DNA from: Erysipelothrix sp.
Lineage (GTDB): Bacteria; Bacillota_I; Bacilli_A; Erysipelotrichales; Erysipelotrichaceae
Assembly (NCBI GenBank): GCA_012512595.1
Contig: JAAZDW010000017.1
Span: 1-49,879 of the forward strand
DNA: 49,879 nt
Reading direction: 5' to 3'
A program made the position numbers and the translations under genes. Below are positions 7,357 through 13,448 of the stretch, one piece after another. Each line of letters starts with the position of its first letter. The stretch's first letter is position 1. The notes beneath the pieces were generated by a model, which saw nothing but the letters and a program-made list of their open reading frames with translations, did no database searches and was not told the origin of the DNA.

Positions 7357-7391
7357 GTAATGTAAAAATAAAAGCCTATATTAAAATAGGT
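7348..7391 (+). repeat. Direct repeat TTAAAATAGGT, two copies
   Basis: Identical 11-base copies at 7348-7358 and 7381-7391, starts 33 bases apart. The first spans the hydrolase stop, the second carries the comGA ribosome binding site. No promoter is clear here. Confidence 0.7.
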
Positions 7392-7398
7392 GGTTAAT

Positions 7399-8337
7399 AT
7401 GCTATTAAGGTTTGAAGAGTTGTTACATTTTGCATTAATAAATAAGTCGACCGATATCCATTTTGAAATAATTAGAAGTAAATTAGAAATAAGCGTTAGA
7501 GCTATTAGTGGGTTTAAAAGTTTCAAAGTTAAAAATAATGATTATCAATTATTGGAGTATATTAAATACATCAGTAACCTTAACTTAATTGAATCTGAAC
7601 TACCCCAAAGTGGCTCTTTTTCTTATGTTTTTAGTGACCAAGAATATTTTTTTAGAGTTGCAAGTATAAAAAGTGCTTTTATGGAAACTTGTGTTATTAG
7701 AATTCTTAATAAATTTTTCCTGGATATAAATATTTTTAATAACGTTATCGATGATATTTATAACCTTTTAAATAAAGAAACAGGAATGATTGTTTTTAGC
7801 GGTCCGACAGGATCAGGAAAAACTACTTCTTTATATAGTTTTATTCAGATGTTTACTGGTAAAAAAATATATTCAATCGAAGACCCAATTGAGATATTTT
7901 TTGACAATATTGTCCAAATTAGTGTTAACAAAAATCGTGGCCTTACATATAAATCAGGGATTAAGCAGGTTTTAAGGCATGACCCTGATATAATCGTAAT
8001 AGGGGAGATAAGAGATGAAAACGCAGCGCAGATGGCCATTAGAGCTGCAATAACAGGACATCTAGTTGTGACCACAATCCATTCTAAAAACGCAATCGGA
8101 GTAATAAACCGTTTGCATGATCTTGGAGTTAGCTATAATGACATTTATGAAAATATAATATTTATTTCTAACCAAAGATTACTAAAAGCTTTAGAAAAAA
8201 ATGAGAGATGGTGTGTCTATGAAGTCATTAATGAAAAAGCTATTGAAAAAATTTCAAAAGAGGGAAGGACAAACTACAAACAACCTGATATCCAAACTAT
8301 TGTCCAAGGACTTAAAAATCAAAACAAAGTCCAATAG
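7399..8337 (+). CDS. comGA: ComGA, competence pilus assembly ATPase
   Basis: Cytoplasmic secretion ATPase that powers assembly of the competence pseudopilus. Features, numbered from ATG 7399: an N-terminal DIHFE motif, Walker A GPTGSGKT at 135-142, the SIEDPIE Asp-box region, Walker B region DPDIIVIGEIRD and the His-box TGHLVVTTIHS. At 312 aa it is a compact GspE/PilB family member like Bacillus ComGA. AGGTGG lies 5 bases before the chosen ATG; a GTG at 7390 is inside that site. First gene of a seven-gene comG operon, probably read from the hydrolase promoter or one I could not see. Confidence 0.95.
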   Translation: MLLRFEELLHFALINKSTDIHFEIIRSKLEISVRAISGFKSFKVKNNDYQLLEYIKYISNLNLIESELPQSGSFSYVFSDQEYFFRVASIKSAFMETCVIRILNKFFLDINIFNNVIDDIYNLLNKETGMIVFSGPTGSGKTTSLYSFIQMFTGKKIYSIEDPIEIFFDNIVQISVNKNRGLTYKSGIKQVLRHDPDIIVIGEIRDENAAQMAIRAAITGHLVVTTIHSKNAIGVINRLHDLGVSYNDIYENIIFISNQRLLKALEKNERWCVYEVINEKAIEKISKEGRTNYKQPDIQTIVQGLKNQNKVQ

Positions 8338-9238
8338 AAAACAATTAAAAATACTAAATGAAATAACCTACTTGGCCAATAGCAGTTTGAGCATCAATGA
8401 AATAGAAAACTTTTTAAATATTGAAATAGGCATGTTTGACAGAGATTATTTTGACAGGTACTTTAAGGAATACTCTCAGCTTTTATCCCACTTAAATAAT
8501 TTAGAACTAATCGCCTATATAAGTTTTACTCAAAATTTAAAATTAGAGTTAATCAAAAATCTTCTAAACAAAATTGTCTATCCTTTCGTACTAATTAGTT
8601 TTGCCTTTTTGACGCTAATTACTTTTAAGTTTTCTGTAATGCCACTTTTTGAAAGTTTTAGTGATAAAAACTTTATTTCAATAATAAATATTTTCTTCTA
8701 TCTTTCGGTCATTGTTTTTGTTATTCTCATATTATTGTTATTTTTCGCTATTTATATATTTAAAAAACCAACCTACTTTATAATTCTCTATTATCGTTTT
8801 TATCAATTTAGAATCTTAAAGATCATTGAACTTTACTATATAAGCATTCTAAGCCATCTTTTAATTTTATTTGATAAACAAGGACTATCAACCTATCAGA
8901 CCTTTGACCTTATCAATAAGTTTAAGGGTAATACTATCATTGCCAATCTTGCCTATTTTGTAAGTGTCGATCTTGAAAAAGGTAGTGGATTAGAAACAAG
9001 TATTCAAAACATGCATATTAATCAAAACTTTAAAAATGTCGTTTTGTTGGGAATGAAGACCAATAATTATGTGAAACTGCTTTCTCAATATAGTGAAAAA
9101 ACATTTAACGATATTTTAAGTGAGATAGGCTTTCTTTCCAAATTTTTATTAATGACATCTTATCTCTATATTGGAATTATTGTTTTGTTATTGTACAAAA
9201 TATTGAGTTTGCCAATTGGTTTGATTGATAATATCTAA
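8219..9238 (+). CDS. comGB: ComGB, competence pilus inner-membrane platform protein
   Basis: GspF-family membrane protein that forms the platform for pseudopilus assembly with ComGA. Three hydrophobic segments are visible: one around FAFLTLITFKFSVMPLF, a second around FFYLSVIVFVILILLLFF, and a C-terminal one around LYIGIIVLLLYKIL. The start is uncertain. ATG 8219 has a weak GGTG upstream and overlaps comGA by about 120 bases; ATG 8201 is longer. TTG 8300 would give a 38-base overlap and an N-terminus closer in length to other ComGB proteins, but it lacks a ribosome binding site. Confidence 0.85.
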   Translation: MKSLMKKLLKKFQKREGQTTNNLISKLLSKDLKIKTKSNRKQLKILNEITYLANSSLSINEIENFLNIEIGMFDRDYFDRYFKEYSQLLSHLNNLELIAYISFTQNLKLELIKNLLNKIVYPFVLISFAFLTLITFKFSVMPLFESFSDKNFISIINIFFYLSVIVFVILILLLFFAIYIFKKPTYFIILYYRFYQFRILKIIELYYISILSHLLILFDKQGLSTYQTFDLINKFKGNTIIANLAYFVSVDLEKGSGLETSIQNMHINQNFKNVVLLGMKTNNYVKLLSQYSEKTFNDILSEIGFLSKFLLMTSYLYIGIIVLLLYKILSLPIGLIDNI

Positions 9239-9251
9239 AGGAGGGCTTTAA

Positions 9252-9545
9252 ATGCGTAAAGGCTTTACACTATTAGAAATGATTGTTGTTATTATGATAA
9301 TTGCTTTGTTAATGTTAGTAACTATCCCTAATATTCAAAAAGTAATTACTATCGTCCAAGACAAAGGTTGTGAATCGCAAGTTAAATTGGTTGATGCAGC
9401 GATTTTGCAGTACATGGTAAAAACAGATGAAATCCCAGCAGCTATTGACCAGTTAATCGAAGAGGGTCTTTTAGACCAAAAACAATATAAGTGTCAAAAT
9501 AATAAACAAATTTATATTGATGATGGCCAAGCTTATGCTGAATAA
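9252..9545 (+). CDS. comGC: ComGC, major competence pseudopilin
   Basis: Main subunit of the transformation pseudopilus. It has a short positively charged leader and the prepilin peptidase site RKGFTLLEM, with Glu at +5 of the mature protein, followed by a hydrophobic helix to about residue 25. C40 and C81 could form the intramolecular disulfide known in Bacillus ComGC. At 97 aa it is full length. A strong AAAGGAGGG precedes the ATG, the best ribosome binding site in the operon, as expected for the most abundant product. Confidence 0.95.
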   Translation: MRKGFTLLEMIVVIMIIALLMLVTIPNIQKVITIVQDKGCESQVKLVDAAILQYMVKTDEIPAAIDQLIEEGLLDQKQYKCQNNKQIYIDDGQAYAE

Positions 9546-9870
9546 AGGTTTTACAATGATTGAAGCCTTAGTAGTAGTATTAATTGTTTCCTTATTCAAC
9601 AGTCTAGCTTTTTATAATCTTAAAGATCAAACCTTTCAAAATCAAGTTGAAGTTTATAAGCTTAGTGACAAATTAGTTAATCTCCAAATAGAGAGCCTAC
9701 TTTTAAAAGAGAAAAATTGTTTGTCAAAAGGTCAGTATACTTCTAAATATTCAGTTTGTTTTAATCAACATGGAAATATAAATATGTCACAAAATCTACT
9801 ATTAATAAACAATAATTTATTTATAACTATATTTTTAGGAGCTGGAACCCATGAAGTTAAACAAAGGTAG
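9535..9870 (+). CDS. comGD: ComGD-like minor pseudopilin
   Basis: Minor pseudopilin. The leader MLNKGFTMIEAL carries the prepilin cleavage site, and the hydrophobic helix runs to about residue 27. I choose ATG 9535 because it gives a short basic leader; ATGs at 9517-9523 would add six residues deeper inside comGC. The start overlaps the comGC stop by 11 bases, so translation is coupled. Assignment to ComGD rests on position after comGC and the 111-residue length. Confidence 0.85.
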   Translation: MLNKGFTMIEALVVVLIVSLFNSLAFYNLKDQTFQNQVEVYKLSDKLVNLQIESLLLKEKNCLSKGQYTSKYSVCFNQHGNINMSQNLLLINNNLFITIFLGAGTHEVKQR

Positions 9871-9994
9871 TATTCTGATTGAAACATTAGCCGCTCTTTT
9901 AATTTTAGCGATAATGACACAGACAATTTTAGGACTGTCACAACTTGATAGTATCAAGCTAGACATCGTTAATAAGTATGAACAAGGGATTTAG
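9851..9994 (+). CDS. comGE: ComGE-like mini pseudopilin (47 aa)
   Basis: Very small prepilin-like protein. It begins MKLNKGSILIETLAAL, with a basic leader, Gly cleavage site, Glu at +5 and a hydrophobic helix. It ends after only 47 residues (TAG 9992-9994), whereas ComGE in Bacillus is about 115 aa. AGGAG at 9837-9841 lies 9 bases before the ATG, so translation is plausible. It overlaps comGD by 20 bases and the next gene by 17. Its place, fourth of five pilin-like genes, is that of comGE. Almost the whole globular domain is absent. Confidence 0.75.
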   Translation: MKLNKGSILIETLAALLILAIMTQTILGLSQLDSIKLDIVNKYEQGI

Positions 9995-10361
9995 TTTAGT
10001 AGAAGTTTTAATTGGGATTGTTTTATCATTTTTTGTTTTAGATTTATGTTTAAGTGTTTTTACATATACAAAGACTGACCTAAAAGATTACAGCAGTCAA
10101 GATTTAATCTCAAGCTTTCAAATCCATCAGATTTTAAATCTAAGTACAGAGATTGATGTGTTTGAAGATGAAATTTCTTTTCGATACTTAAATGAAATAA
10201 GAACTCTGTACTTTGTCAACGACAAAGTGACTATAAAACCGGGGACGCTCATATTTTTTATTAAGGTTGATAGGTGTTTATTTTTTGTTGAGGATGAGAA
10301 AATATATATAAAACTATTTAGAAATACCCAAGAATCAGTCTTTTTGATAGGCCTTCTATGA
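9978..10361 (+). CDS. comGF: ComGF-like minor pseudopilin
   Basis: Prepilin-like protein of 127 aa. The leader MNKGFSLVEVLIG has the processing site and Glu, followed by a hydrophobic helix to about residue 28. The rest is a beta-rich domain without clear motifs. Its position between the ComGE-like and ComGG-like genes and its size match ComGF. Its TGA stop overlaps the next ATG (ATGA), so the two are coupled. Confidence 0.8.
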   Translation: MNKGFSLVEVLIGIVLSFFVLDLCLSVFTYTKTDLKDYSSQDLISSFQIHQILNLSTEIDVFEDEISFRYLNEIRTLYFVNDKVTIKPGTLIFFIKVDRCLFFVEDEKIYIKLFRNTQESVFLIGLL

Positions 10362-10702
10362 AAAAAGGTTATATATTAATTTTCTCACTCAAACTTTTTA
10401 TCATTATTTCAAGTTTATACTTAGTCAAGTTTAATCAAGTTCAAACGACAGCCTATGTATACAACCAAGCGCAAGAAATATATGCACGTCTAGATGCAGA
10501 AAATTTTATATTTGAAGAAGTGTTATTTAGAATGTCAATCTATGATGAAGATGATTTTTCAATAATTTATGAAGACTATTTATTTGATGTTAAATTATCT
10601 GAAACAATTATAAAAATAAAAGTTGATAATTTATCACAATACTCAATAAAACTAACTTATGACGATGATTGCATCTGTTTCACAGAGTTTTTGTATAATT
10701 AA
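10358..10702 (+). CDS. comGG: ComGG-like competence protein
   Basis: Last gene of the comG operon, 114 aa. It starts MKKGYILIFSLKLF, a basic leader followed by a hydrophobic helix to about residue 24. As in ComGG of other Firmicutes, the classic Glu at +5 is missing. The following segment (YNQAQEIYARLDAENFIFE) resembles the helical region after the membrane segment in ComGG. The assignment rests mainly on operon position. It shares four bases with comGF. Confidence 0.75.
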   Translation: MKKGYILIFSLKLFIIISSLYLVKFNQVQTTAYVYNQAQEIYARLDAENFIFEEVLFRMSIYDEDDFSIIYEDYLFDVKLSETIIKIKVDNLSQYSIKLTYDDDCICFTEFLYN

Positions 10703-10729: not shown

Positions 10730-11806
10730 GTGATTAGAACAAATAAATTAGTAAGTTTTTTAGAGGAAAATGATCTTGACGGTATTTTAATTCATAACCC
10801 GGCTAATATATTTTATTATTCAAACTTTAAAGGGACAAGTGGTAGTTTATTAATGACTAAAACACTTAACTATTTAATAACTGATTTTAGATATGTAGAC
10901 CAGGCAAAGGCAAGTGCAATAGATTTTGAGATTGTAGAAACAGATACTATTGAAACAATTGACATTGCGATCAATAAGTTAAGAAAAAAGCATAAACTTT
11001 ATAAGTTAGGTTTAGAAGGCGATGTTATATCTCGAAACACTTGGCTAGATTATGAAAAGAAATTAACTTCAAGACTGGTTAATGTAAATATTGACCATCT
11101 TCGGGAAATCAAAGACCAAAAAGAAATCAATTTAATTAAAAAAGCAATTGAAATTGCAGAAACTGCTTTTTTAGACACGCTCAATAAAATTAAAATTGGG
11201 ATGACTGAAAAAACCGTAGCTAGAATTTTAGAATTTAAAATGCTAGAACTAGGGGCAGAAGCAATTGCCTTTAATACAATCGTCGCAAGTGGAAGCCGTG
11301 GTGCCTTACCGCATGGTGTAGCATCAGATAAGCTGATAGCTAAAAACGAATTAATAACAATAGATTTTGGCTGTGTCTATAAAGGTTATTGTAGTGATAT
11401 TACAAGAACTTTTGCAATTGGCAAAATAGATGAAAAATTACTTGAGATTTATGATATAGTTCTACAGGCAAATAAACTAGGTATTAAAACCCTAGCAGCA
11501 AATCAAAAAGCTTGTTATGTTGACCAAGTAGTGAGAGATTTTATTAGCGATAATGGATATGGAGATAACTTTGGCCACGGTTTAGGTCACAGTTTTGGTA
11601 TTGAAGTTCATGAAAATCCAAGACTAAATCAAATTTCAAATAAAACTCTTCAAAGTGGACACTTACTTACTGTTGAGCCGGGTATTTATGTTAGTGGTTT
11701 AGGTGGTGTTAGAATCGAAGATGATGTGTTGATTTTAGATGATGGTATTGAAGTTTTAACATCTTTAAATAAAGAACTAATTATATTAGAGGAGGAAAAT
11801 GTATGA
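10730..11806 (+). CDS. Xaa-Pro aminopeptidase/dipeptidase, M24B family
   Basis: Cytoplasmic metallopeptidase that releases residues next to proline. It has an N-terminal creatinase-like domain (to about residue 125) and a C-terminal pita-bread domain. The five metal ligands are present: two Asp in TIDFGC and YCSDITRTF, His in GHGLGHSFG, Glu in TVEPGIYV and Glu in GVRIEDDV. Length 358 aa matches YqhT/PepQ of Bacillus. GTG is the start; the only nearby ATG runs straight into TGA. The stop overlaps the efp start, the same pairing as yqhT-efp in Bacillus subtilis. Confidence 0.93.
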   Translation: MIRTNKLVSFLEENDLDGILIHNPANIFYYSNFKGTSGSLLMTKTLNYLITDFRYVDQAKASAIDFEIVETDTIETIDIAINKLRKKHKLYKLGLEGDVISRNTWLDYEKKLTSRLVNVNIDHLREIKDQKEINLIKKAIEIAETAFLDTLNKIKIGMTEKTVARILEFKMLELGAEAIAFNTIVASGSRGALPHGVASDKLIAKNELITIDFGCVYKGYCSDITRTFAIGKIDEKLLEIYDIVLQANKLGIKTLAANQKACYVDQVVRDFISDNGYGDNFGHGLGHSFGIEVHENPRLNQISNKTLQSGHLLTVEPGIYVSGLGGVRIEDDVLILDDGIEVLTSLNKELIILEEENV

Positions 11807-12360
11807 TTTTAGTAAATGATTTAAGAGCTGGAATGACTTTTGTCTTAGATGGCGAAGTTTATTCAGTTTTGGACAAAACAAATAATAAAACAGCAAGAAG
11901 TAAGATGAGTATAAAAACAAAGGTAAAAAATATGCGTACTGGTTCAATTACAGAATTATCATGGACCAGTGGCGATAAAGCCAAACGCGCCCATATGGAC
12001 AAAAAAGAAATGCAATACTTATATGATGGTGGAACTAGTCTAGTTTTTATGGATACTTCTACTTTTGAGCAACTTGAAATACCAAAGGAACAATTAGCTT
12101 GGGAAATTAACTTTATCAAAGAAAACCAAAACATTGAGATTGTTAACTTTGAAGGCGAAATTATGGGAATAAATTTACCAGATAAAATTGCTTTAAAAGT
12201 TGTAGAAACAGAGCCTGCGGTAAAAGGTGATACCGCAACTGCCGCAAGTAAAAATGCTGTTTTAGAAACGGGCCTTGAAGTAAAAGTACCATTGTTTATT
12301 GAAAGAGATGAAATAATCTTAGTAACTACAGCTGATGGAAAATATAGTTCTAGAGCTTAA
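11803..12360 (+). CDS. efp: Elongation factor P
   Basis: Translation factor that rescues ribosomes stalled on proline runs. All three domains are present (185 aa), with NDLRAG at the N-terminus and VKVPLFIERDE in domain III. Ungapped counting against the E. coli sequence as I remember it puts R32 at the place of the modified lysine. The surrounding tip is KTARSKM instead of the usual KPGKG. So the normal lysine modification cannot occur at that place. GAGGAGG precedes the ATG, which overlaps the pepQ-type stop (ATGA). Confidence 0.95.
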   Translation: MILVNDLRAGMTFVLDGEVYSVLDKTNNKTARSKMSIKTKVKNMRTGSITELSWTSGDKAKRAHMDKKEMQYLYDGGTSLVFMDTSTFEQLEIPKEQLAWEINFIKENQNIEIVNFEGEIMGINLPDKIALKVVETEPAVKGDTATAASKNAVLETGLEVKVPLFIERDEIILVTTADGKYSSRA

Positions 12361-12412: not shown

Positions 12413-12435
12413 TGATATAATATTATGTATGGAGG
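12413..12435 (+). promoter_or_regulatory. Promoter and ribosome binding site of the tail-anchored protein gene
   Basis: TGA precedes TATAAT (12416-12421); TTAGAA at 12392-12397 is a possible -35 with 18-base spacing. GGAGG at 12431-12435 fixes the ATG at 12444. Confidence 0.55.
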
Positions 12436-12443
12436 TAGAGCCA

Positions 12444-13448
12444 ATGAGTGAATTTTCAAGAGTCAAAAAGAATAAAGATTTATATAAAGAAATAATAGAA
12501 GATGATAAAACAATAATTATAGAATCTTCCTTGCGTGACTATGAAAGAAGAACCACTGACCCGCATTCAAATGAAAGTAAGTATCAAGCTAGTCGTTATC
12601 GCAAAAATCATAAACTAGAAAGCGATAAAGAACAGTTTGACCAAATTTTTGACTTGGAAAATAAAGAAAGTCAACCTGAAAGCTTGTCTAAAAAAGAAAT
12701 ATTGCGAGATCGTGACTTGCTAGAAGAGTTTATAGAGGAAGTCAAACATTACAATATTAATCGTGGTTTGAGAAATGTTCAAGATACACAAATGAATATC
12801 CTTCAAAATTTAGGCAAGACTCCAACAGAAAATATAGAGAAGGATTTAAGTGAAACTTTTAAAGAAGTTGAAAACATCACTAAGAGTGATCAAGATTTAA
12901 CTAGAGAGATACAAGCGATCATTTCAGATTTAGATAATGAAATTGAAGAAATTACCTTACCTGAGCCAGATGGTTTTGTTTTTACACCCCTTGACGAGGA
13001 AAAGGATAAAATATTATATAGTATTTTTGAAGAAATAGAAGAAAACGCAGATAAAAAACCAAAAACTGATAAAGCTGTGTTTAATCGAGACGAAGTGTCA
13101 AAAACAGTTGAATTAGAAGAAGCTGAAGAAAGTCTAAAAGAAGAAGTTGTTGAAAAAACTGAGTTTGAAACGCGCGATATTAACAATGTATCTCAAGAAA
13201 TAATTACTGATGAAGTTTTAGAAACCACTAATGATAAGCGTGATTACAAATCATCTGAACTATTAGAGTTAACTCAAACATTGAATTTAAAGCTTGATTT
13301 ACAAGAAGCTGAATTAGACAACGTAACACAAAAGGTTAGTGTTTTAGACAAAATACTTTCTCTATTTGTTTTAATCCTAGTCCTTGCTTTAATTGGTATT
13401 ATCCTGTTTGGAATTTTTTGGGTTTCTAAGGAACGAGGTTTATTTTAG
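12444..13448 (+). CDS. Unknown acidic tail-anchored protein
   Basis: I do not recognise this 334-residue protein. It has no signal peptide. About 300 very acidic, mostly helical residues (many E, D, K) are followed by a coiled-coil-like stretch and one C-terminal hydrophobic helix (about residues 305-327), then a short basic tail. The bulk should therefore lie in the cytoplasm, anchored by its end. The N-terminus, MSEFSRVKKNKDLY, contains SRxxK, similar to the motif by which partner proteins bind the division regulator GpsB. It has its own promoter and runs directly into cmk. GGAGG 8 bases upstream sets the start at 12444, not the ATG at 12429. Confidence 0.8.
   Translation: MSEFSRVKKNKDLYKEIIEDDKTIIIESSLRDYERRTTDPHSNESKYQASRYRKNHKLESDKEQFDQIFDLENKESQPESLSKKEILRDRDLLEEFIEEVKHYNINRGLRNVQDTQMNILQNLGKTPTENIEKDLSETFKEVENITKSDQDLTREIQAIISDLDNEIEEITLPEPDGFVFTPLDEEKDKILYSIFEEIEENADKKPKTDKAVFNRDEVSKTVELEEAEESLKEEVVEKTEFETRDINNVSQEIITDEVLETTNDKRDYKSSELLELTQTLNLKLDLQEAELDNVTQKVSVLDKILSLFVLILVLALIGIILFGIFWVSKERGLF

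Follow-up and report, generated by a model that had tools for sequence, protein, structure and literature searches.

The single gene for elongation factor P (EF-P) in the analysed window, a stretch of 49,879 nucleotides of Erysipelothrix sp. (contig JAAZDW010000017.1), encodes a protein with Arg at the loop tip, where a modified Lys is located in most bacteria, and without Pro at the second position before the tip (position -2; hereafter Pro-less EF-P). The best explanation, with a probability of about two in three, is that this protein serves the cell as housekeeping EF-P and belongs to a Pro-less subfamily, in which the modified Lys has been replaced by a bare Arg or Met tip, and that it works as a full EF-P in the unmodified form. 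Its activity and modification state we infer from the observed sequences, distribution and gene linkage. R32, or M32 in the sister proteins, would contact the end of the P-site tRNA directly, without modification, and many cells, including that of the window, would rely on Pro-less EF-P alone, while Lys-type EF-P and the aminopentanol genes would form a separate cassette, kept by some relatives and missing in others. A modified tip residue is generally regarded as necessary for EF-P; this branch, which includes relatives of the mycoplasmas, appears to manage polyproline synthesis with a bare Arg or Met.

The efp gene and its loop

The features of the window relevant to this analysis are as follows.

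10730 to 11806, + strand: upstream gene resembling an M24 aminopeptidase (ORF list), with an overlap of 4 bases with the start of efp
11803 to 12360, + strand: efp, elongation factor P, 185 amino acids, Pro-less NKTAR-loop type (TIGR00038 score; whole-length match to solved EF-P structures)
11887 to 11907, + strand: beta3/beta4 loop K29-M35 (KTARSKM), replacing KPGKGQA (ungapped alignment, predicted structure)
11896 to 11898, + strand: R32 codon AGA, loop tip, equivalent to Lys34 of Escherichia coli and Lys32 of Bacillus subtilis (alignment, AlphaFold model, and CGA in the same-genus locus L003)

Only one EF-P gene was identified in the ORF list of the window, and its product scored 218.8 bits against TIGR00038, the EF-P equivalog of NCBIfam (cut-off, 185.8), and also passed the cut-off of Pfam EFP. 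The AlphaFold model (mean pLDDT 88.7) has the three-domain fold, and all 185 residues were aligned with solved EF-Ps (Z up to 22). Upon ungapped alignment, the loop N28-K29-T30-A31-R32-S33-K34-M35 stands against V-K-P-G-K-G-Q-A of E. coli, with K29-T30-A31-R32-S33 on K-P-G-K-G and R32 on the modified lysine. The E. coli and B. subtilis sequences served as yardsticks for this alignment, and the same register was obtained with the PGKG EF-Ps read in relatives. In the model, strands 18-30 and 33-43 flank a turn formed by A31-R32. The original prediction, that Arg occupies the modification site of a loop devoid of PGKG and gives EpmA-type enzymes and the aminopentanol route no lysine to act on, was thus confirmed by the alignment and, for the position of R32, also by the predicted structure. 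The loop itself had been correctly recognized, but the positions assigned to KTARSKM, 11890-11910, encode TARSKMS and should be moved one codon upstream. A lysine at the tip, either K29 or K34, had been named as the arrangement that would speak against the prediction; such a misalignment was ruled out by both alignment and model. K29, the equivalent of E. coli K31, was invariant among the aligned EF-Ps (70 of 70).

The TARS sequence is kept in both of the same-genus genomes, in one of them (L003) with CGA as the Arg codon in place of AGA, and the comparison of the window EF-P with the same-genus EF-Ps gave dN of about 0.15 and dS above 1. The window efp is under purifying selection, and the Arg loop is not a product of chance, since TARS is retained with a different codon at these dN and dS values. 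A pseudogene or an artefact was ruled out because efp is one intact ORF under purifying selection.

Distribution and phylogeny of Pro-less EF-P

EF-P was found in 58 of 60 relatives within the order and in 290 of 296 genomes of the class; two genomes (G018 and G269) gave matches to neither EF-P nor ValS, probably due to unreadable sequence, and were left out of the losses. The Pro-less loops read in the order were NKTAR(S/A), NKTAMR(Q/K/G), NKTAMAK, and NKQ(G/A)R. The other EF-Ps read in the order were a second copy of PGKG type, which in one genome (G044) was the only copy, and one very divergent extra homologue. The latter, the third EF-P homologue of a member of Erysipelotrichaceae (L051, G024:C35:6160-6690; 26% identity, loop KAGNG), is possibly a contamination, its assembly being 6% contaminated.

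By sampling across families of the class, NKTAM loops were detected in families f8, f19, and f23, and SK(S/T)GR, TKTGR, and SKQGR loops in f5 and f16, the families that read UGA as Trp. KSARS was present in f9 and one member of f11, KSANS in one member of f17, and odd loops in f20 and f21, while most other sampled families carried PGKG. The EF-Ps of f9 (L119-L122), f11 (L125), and f17 (L137), with the loops VKSARSAA, VKSARSGA, and VKSANSMA, represent independent losses of PGKG. The unusual loops of the f21 copies (L148, L250, L257, L259) and the f20 copies (L251, L253) are VLQNK-VA (shorter by one residue), VPTKR-GS, and VPKYRGGS, and in one genome (G224) an EF-P with such a loop exists beside a canonical PGKG copy.

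In the tree constructed without the loop columns, a total of 92 Pro-less EF-Ps of f1, f2, f5, f8, f16, and f19 formed one clade (SH-aLRT 99), adjoining the PGKG EF-Ps of f10. This clade is composed of Erysipelotrichaceae (the family of the window), a second family of the order, the UGA-Trp mollicutes, and two further families, so that the early guess of a related loop in mollicutes proved right. In a careful tree of 83 rows, the Pro-less EF-Ps were separated from the PGKG outgroup with support of 100/100. The tips within the clade are Arg or Met, never Lys, and reversion to Lys was found in none of the sampled members. Over the whole tree Pro at -2 changed at least five times, each time together with loss of the tip Lys, except for the short loop of f21, which is not securely alignable. 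This pattern agrees with published work that links the identity of the tip to Pro at -2 and in which Met or Arg is combined with this Pro rarely or not at all (PMC6544042). The alternation between Arg and Met required at least three changes on the best tree, and a single Arg/Met split was not rejected (p-AU 0.24 and 0.50); several independent switches are favoured by the tree but not proven. In the TAMR members, Arg was ruled out as the tip because M32 sits in the middle of the predicted loop (29-35), and in the TAMAK members Arg is absent both at and beside the tip. Judging from these sequences, the replacement by Arg is the state of a large clade that includes Met tips, and no peculiarity of the genome of the window.

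Known modification enzymes and the PGKG-type EF-P

Within the order, EpmA was detected above the cut-off in none of 118 genomes, in a search with a working control, and the matches below the cut-off had the length of lysyl-tRNA synthetases. EarP (PF10093) was searched for in 149 genomes of the class, that of the window (66% complete) among them, without a single match, a weaker result because no control genome gave a match either. It was not present among the window ORFs or the neighbours of efp. The genome assembly of the window is partial (0.95 Mb in 35 contigs, 66% complete), and the absence of modification genes rests mainly on the relatives. With Met at the tip, neither lysylation nor rhamnosylation is possible.

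A second EF-P, with the loop VKPGKGAA and only 34-42% identical to the window EF-P, is present in many genomes of the order. In all 27 genomes where both genes could be placed, an SDR gene is located 1-32 bases downstream of this PGKG efp on the same strand. The SDR scored about 165 bits against the YmfI model, below its cut-off of 238, and is FabG-like in NCBIfam, with no model over the cut-off among those listed; its linkage to efp suggests an aminopentanone reductase. A strong homologue of YnbB (PF06838, 490-526 bits), the product of a 5-aminopentanol modification gene of B. subtilis (PMC5885033), was identified in 45 of 118 genomes, that is, in all 44 SDR-bearing genomes and one more. In 42 of the 44, this homologue and the SDR share a contig, and in most cases it is encoded on the opposite strand at a distance of up to 100 bases. 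Neither the SDR nor a strong YnbB match was found in the 35 genomes holding only Pro-less EF-P, nor was YnbB or the efp-linked SDR found in the 66% complete assembly of the window's genome; two of the Pro-less-only genomes (G034 and G253) lack any strong FabG/YmfI-like SDR. The association between SDR and EF-P type gave a Fisher p near 1e-17 with genomes counted as independent, which overstates the evidence since relatives are not independent; the patchy pattern over two families helps in this respect. GsaB/HemL was rejected as a candidate, its distribution tracking neither EF-P. Likely, the PGKG efp, the SDR gene, and ynbB constitute a cassette for 5-aminopentanol EF-P, which genomes of the order have either as a whole or not at all. 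From the linkage, Erysipelotrichales are predicted to have a 5-aminopentanol system with its reductase, and the relatives with and without Lys-type EF-P and its likely modification genes make natural pairs for testing the purpose of the modification.

Examples of the set of PGKG efp, FabG-like SDR, and ynbB are L164 (G004:C4:137736-140260) and L163 (G037:C1:1054658-1060416). The efp-SDR arrangement was also observed outside the order, in f20 (L174, 1492-3370), with one small gene between efp and SDR, and in f17 (L175, 1492-2837). The EF-Ps of these loci group with the PGKG copies of the order, and horizontal transfer of the cassette to f20 and f17 is possible.

Comparison with known systems

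The 5-aminopentanolylated Lys-type EF-P of B. subtilis shares fold and family with the window EF-P, and PGKG paralogs of that kind exist in many relatives. In contrast, the window EF-P has R32 and T30 in place of the tip Lys and Pro at -2, lacks PGKG, and was found together with neither EpmA nor the pair of YnbB and YmfI-like reductase; YnbB and the efp-linked SDR are absent where Pro-less EF-P is the only EF-P. E. coli EfpL (YeiP) has an Arg tip in the same TAR motif (SPTARGAAT, compared with NKTARSKM), and its R33 was found by mass spectrometry to be unmodified in the functional protein (PMC11611912). EfpL is, however, an accessory paralog with a longer loop and a conserved upstream Pro, whereas the window EF-P is of housekeeping type with a seven-residue loop, and scored below the cut-offs of NF003392 (125.3 against 216 bits) and TIGR02178 (104.1 against 264 bits). 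The Arg32 EF-P of Borrelia burgdorferi, which lacks EarP (PMC4739656), is likewise an Arg tip without a known Arg enzyme, in this case in a Spirochaete. Besides such Arg tips without EarP, Met tips (PMC6544042, PMC11611912) and mollicutes without EpmA-type enzymes (PMC4014445) were already known. No report on this clade or on the linkage of the PGKG copy with SDR and YnbB was found in the literature searchable without subscription.

The EarP-type EF-P with rhamnosylated Arg32, known in Pseudomonas, Shewanella, and Neisseria, resembles the window EF-P in the Arg tip (R32), the absence of Pro at -2 (T30), and the seven-residue loop, and small residues precede the Arg in both (GGR in Neisseria, PMC4739656; KTAR in the window). 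The likeness to rhamnosylated EF-P, as noted originally, holds, but the flanking residues, said then to differ, do so to a lesser degree: K-[STQ]-[GA]-R is similar to the rhamnosylated type in its lack of Pro at -2. The differences are that EarP was not found in the class (again with no control match), that the lineage is on the Firmicutes side, and that sister proteins carry Met tips.

Modification state and activity

Function without modification is suggested by the variety of tip residues and the lack of known modifying enzymes, with EfpL as a precedent (PMC11611912), and the original proposal that this EF-P could be unmodified agrees with the searches for EpmA, EarP, YnbB, and the efp-linked SDR. 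This reading has to assume that the loop or the ribosome is adapted, because the Arg-type EF-P of Neisseria has little activity when unmodified and does not act on E. coli ribosomes, some function being retained by the unmodified Arg32 protein in N. meningitidis (PMC4739656). Alternatively, R32 may carry a lineage-specific modification, the product of an enzyme yet to be discovered or of a distant EarP analogue encoded away from efp. The K-[STQ]-[GA]-R motif is without Pro at -2, a feature shared with EarP-type EF-Ps, which have been tied to rhamnosyl-arginine (PMC6544042), a known modification enzyme is missing in more than half of bacteria (PMC6544042), and similar Arg loops arose again within the class (KSARS in f9 and f11). 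Such a modification is nevertheless unlikely in view of the Met tips of sister proteins, the TAMAK loops without Arg near the tip, the lack of a conserved efp neighbour plausible as a transferase, and the lack of PF10093 matches (with the reservation on the control given above), although an enzyme of unknown type that is unlinked to efp would escape these searches. A wider form, in which an undescribed modification of the tip Arg or another loop atom is compatible with either Arg or Met as tip residue and activates EF-P throughout the branch, is still less probable. If the target were another residue, K29 at -3, the only loop residue shared as a possible enzyme target, would come into question, as would S33 or K34, the latter following the tip in the window; one report describes phosphorylated EF-P in Streptococcus suis (PMC12595652). 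This is very improbable, since K29 is as invariant in canonical EF-Ps, where the modified lysine is three residues further on, and S33 and K34 are unconserved (Q34 within the same genus, R33 in the TAMR members).

Synthesis of PPP stalls without help. ValS retains its PPPNVTG motif both in the window's genome and in each of the 35 ValS sequences read, those of Pro-less-only genomes among them, so that polyproline must still be made and Pro-less EF-P is the obvious candidate for this task. Alternatively, Pro-less EF-P may be mostly devoid of polyproline activity, the cells using ABCF factors of YfmR type or tolerating stalls. ABCF factors may contribute to stall rescue (PMC11381351), loss of efp is mild in B. 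subtilis, which has YfmR and YkpA as further stall-resolving factors (PMC6613710, PMC11381351), and Pro-Pro motifs are few in the long open frames of the window, with 15 in about 15,000 residues, some of them in spurious frames. The chance of this is small, however, given the conserved ValS motif, the presence of EF-P in nearly the whole class, and the purifying selection on the window efp. In addition, EF-P is retained by every mollicute studied, where the beta-lysylation enzymes have no homologues, and it is essential in Mycoplasma genitalium and M. pneumoniae (PMC4014445).

Genes around efp

The gene at 10730-11806, presumably a peptidase of PepP/YqhT type, is genomic context and no modification gene, and such a gene is located beside efp in few other genera. 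Across genera, the commonest neighbours of Pro-less efp are com pseudopilins, cmk, a membrane transport protein, and an uncharacterised gene. None is a conserved neighbour plausible as a modifying enzyme, and this candidate was dropped, the PepP linkage being confined to few genera. Upstream of the peptidase-efp pair, the window carries comG-like type IV pilin and competence genes (7390-10702), and pseudopilin-like genes are the commonest upstream neighbours of Pro-less efp in other genera. The gene between efp and cmk (12429-13448) encodes an uncharacterised acidic protein, hydrophobic over a stretch at its C-terminal end. In about 21 genera efp is followed by a comparable acidic gene, with sequence similarity to the window protein detected in only 12 loci.
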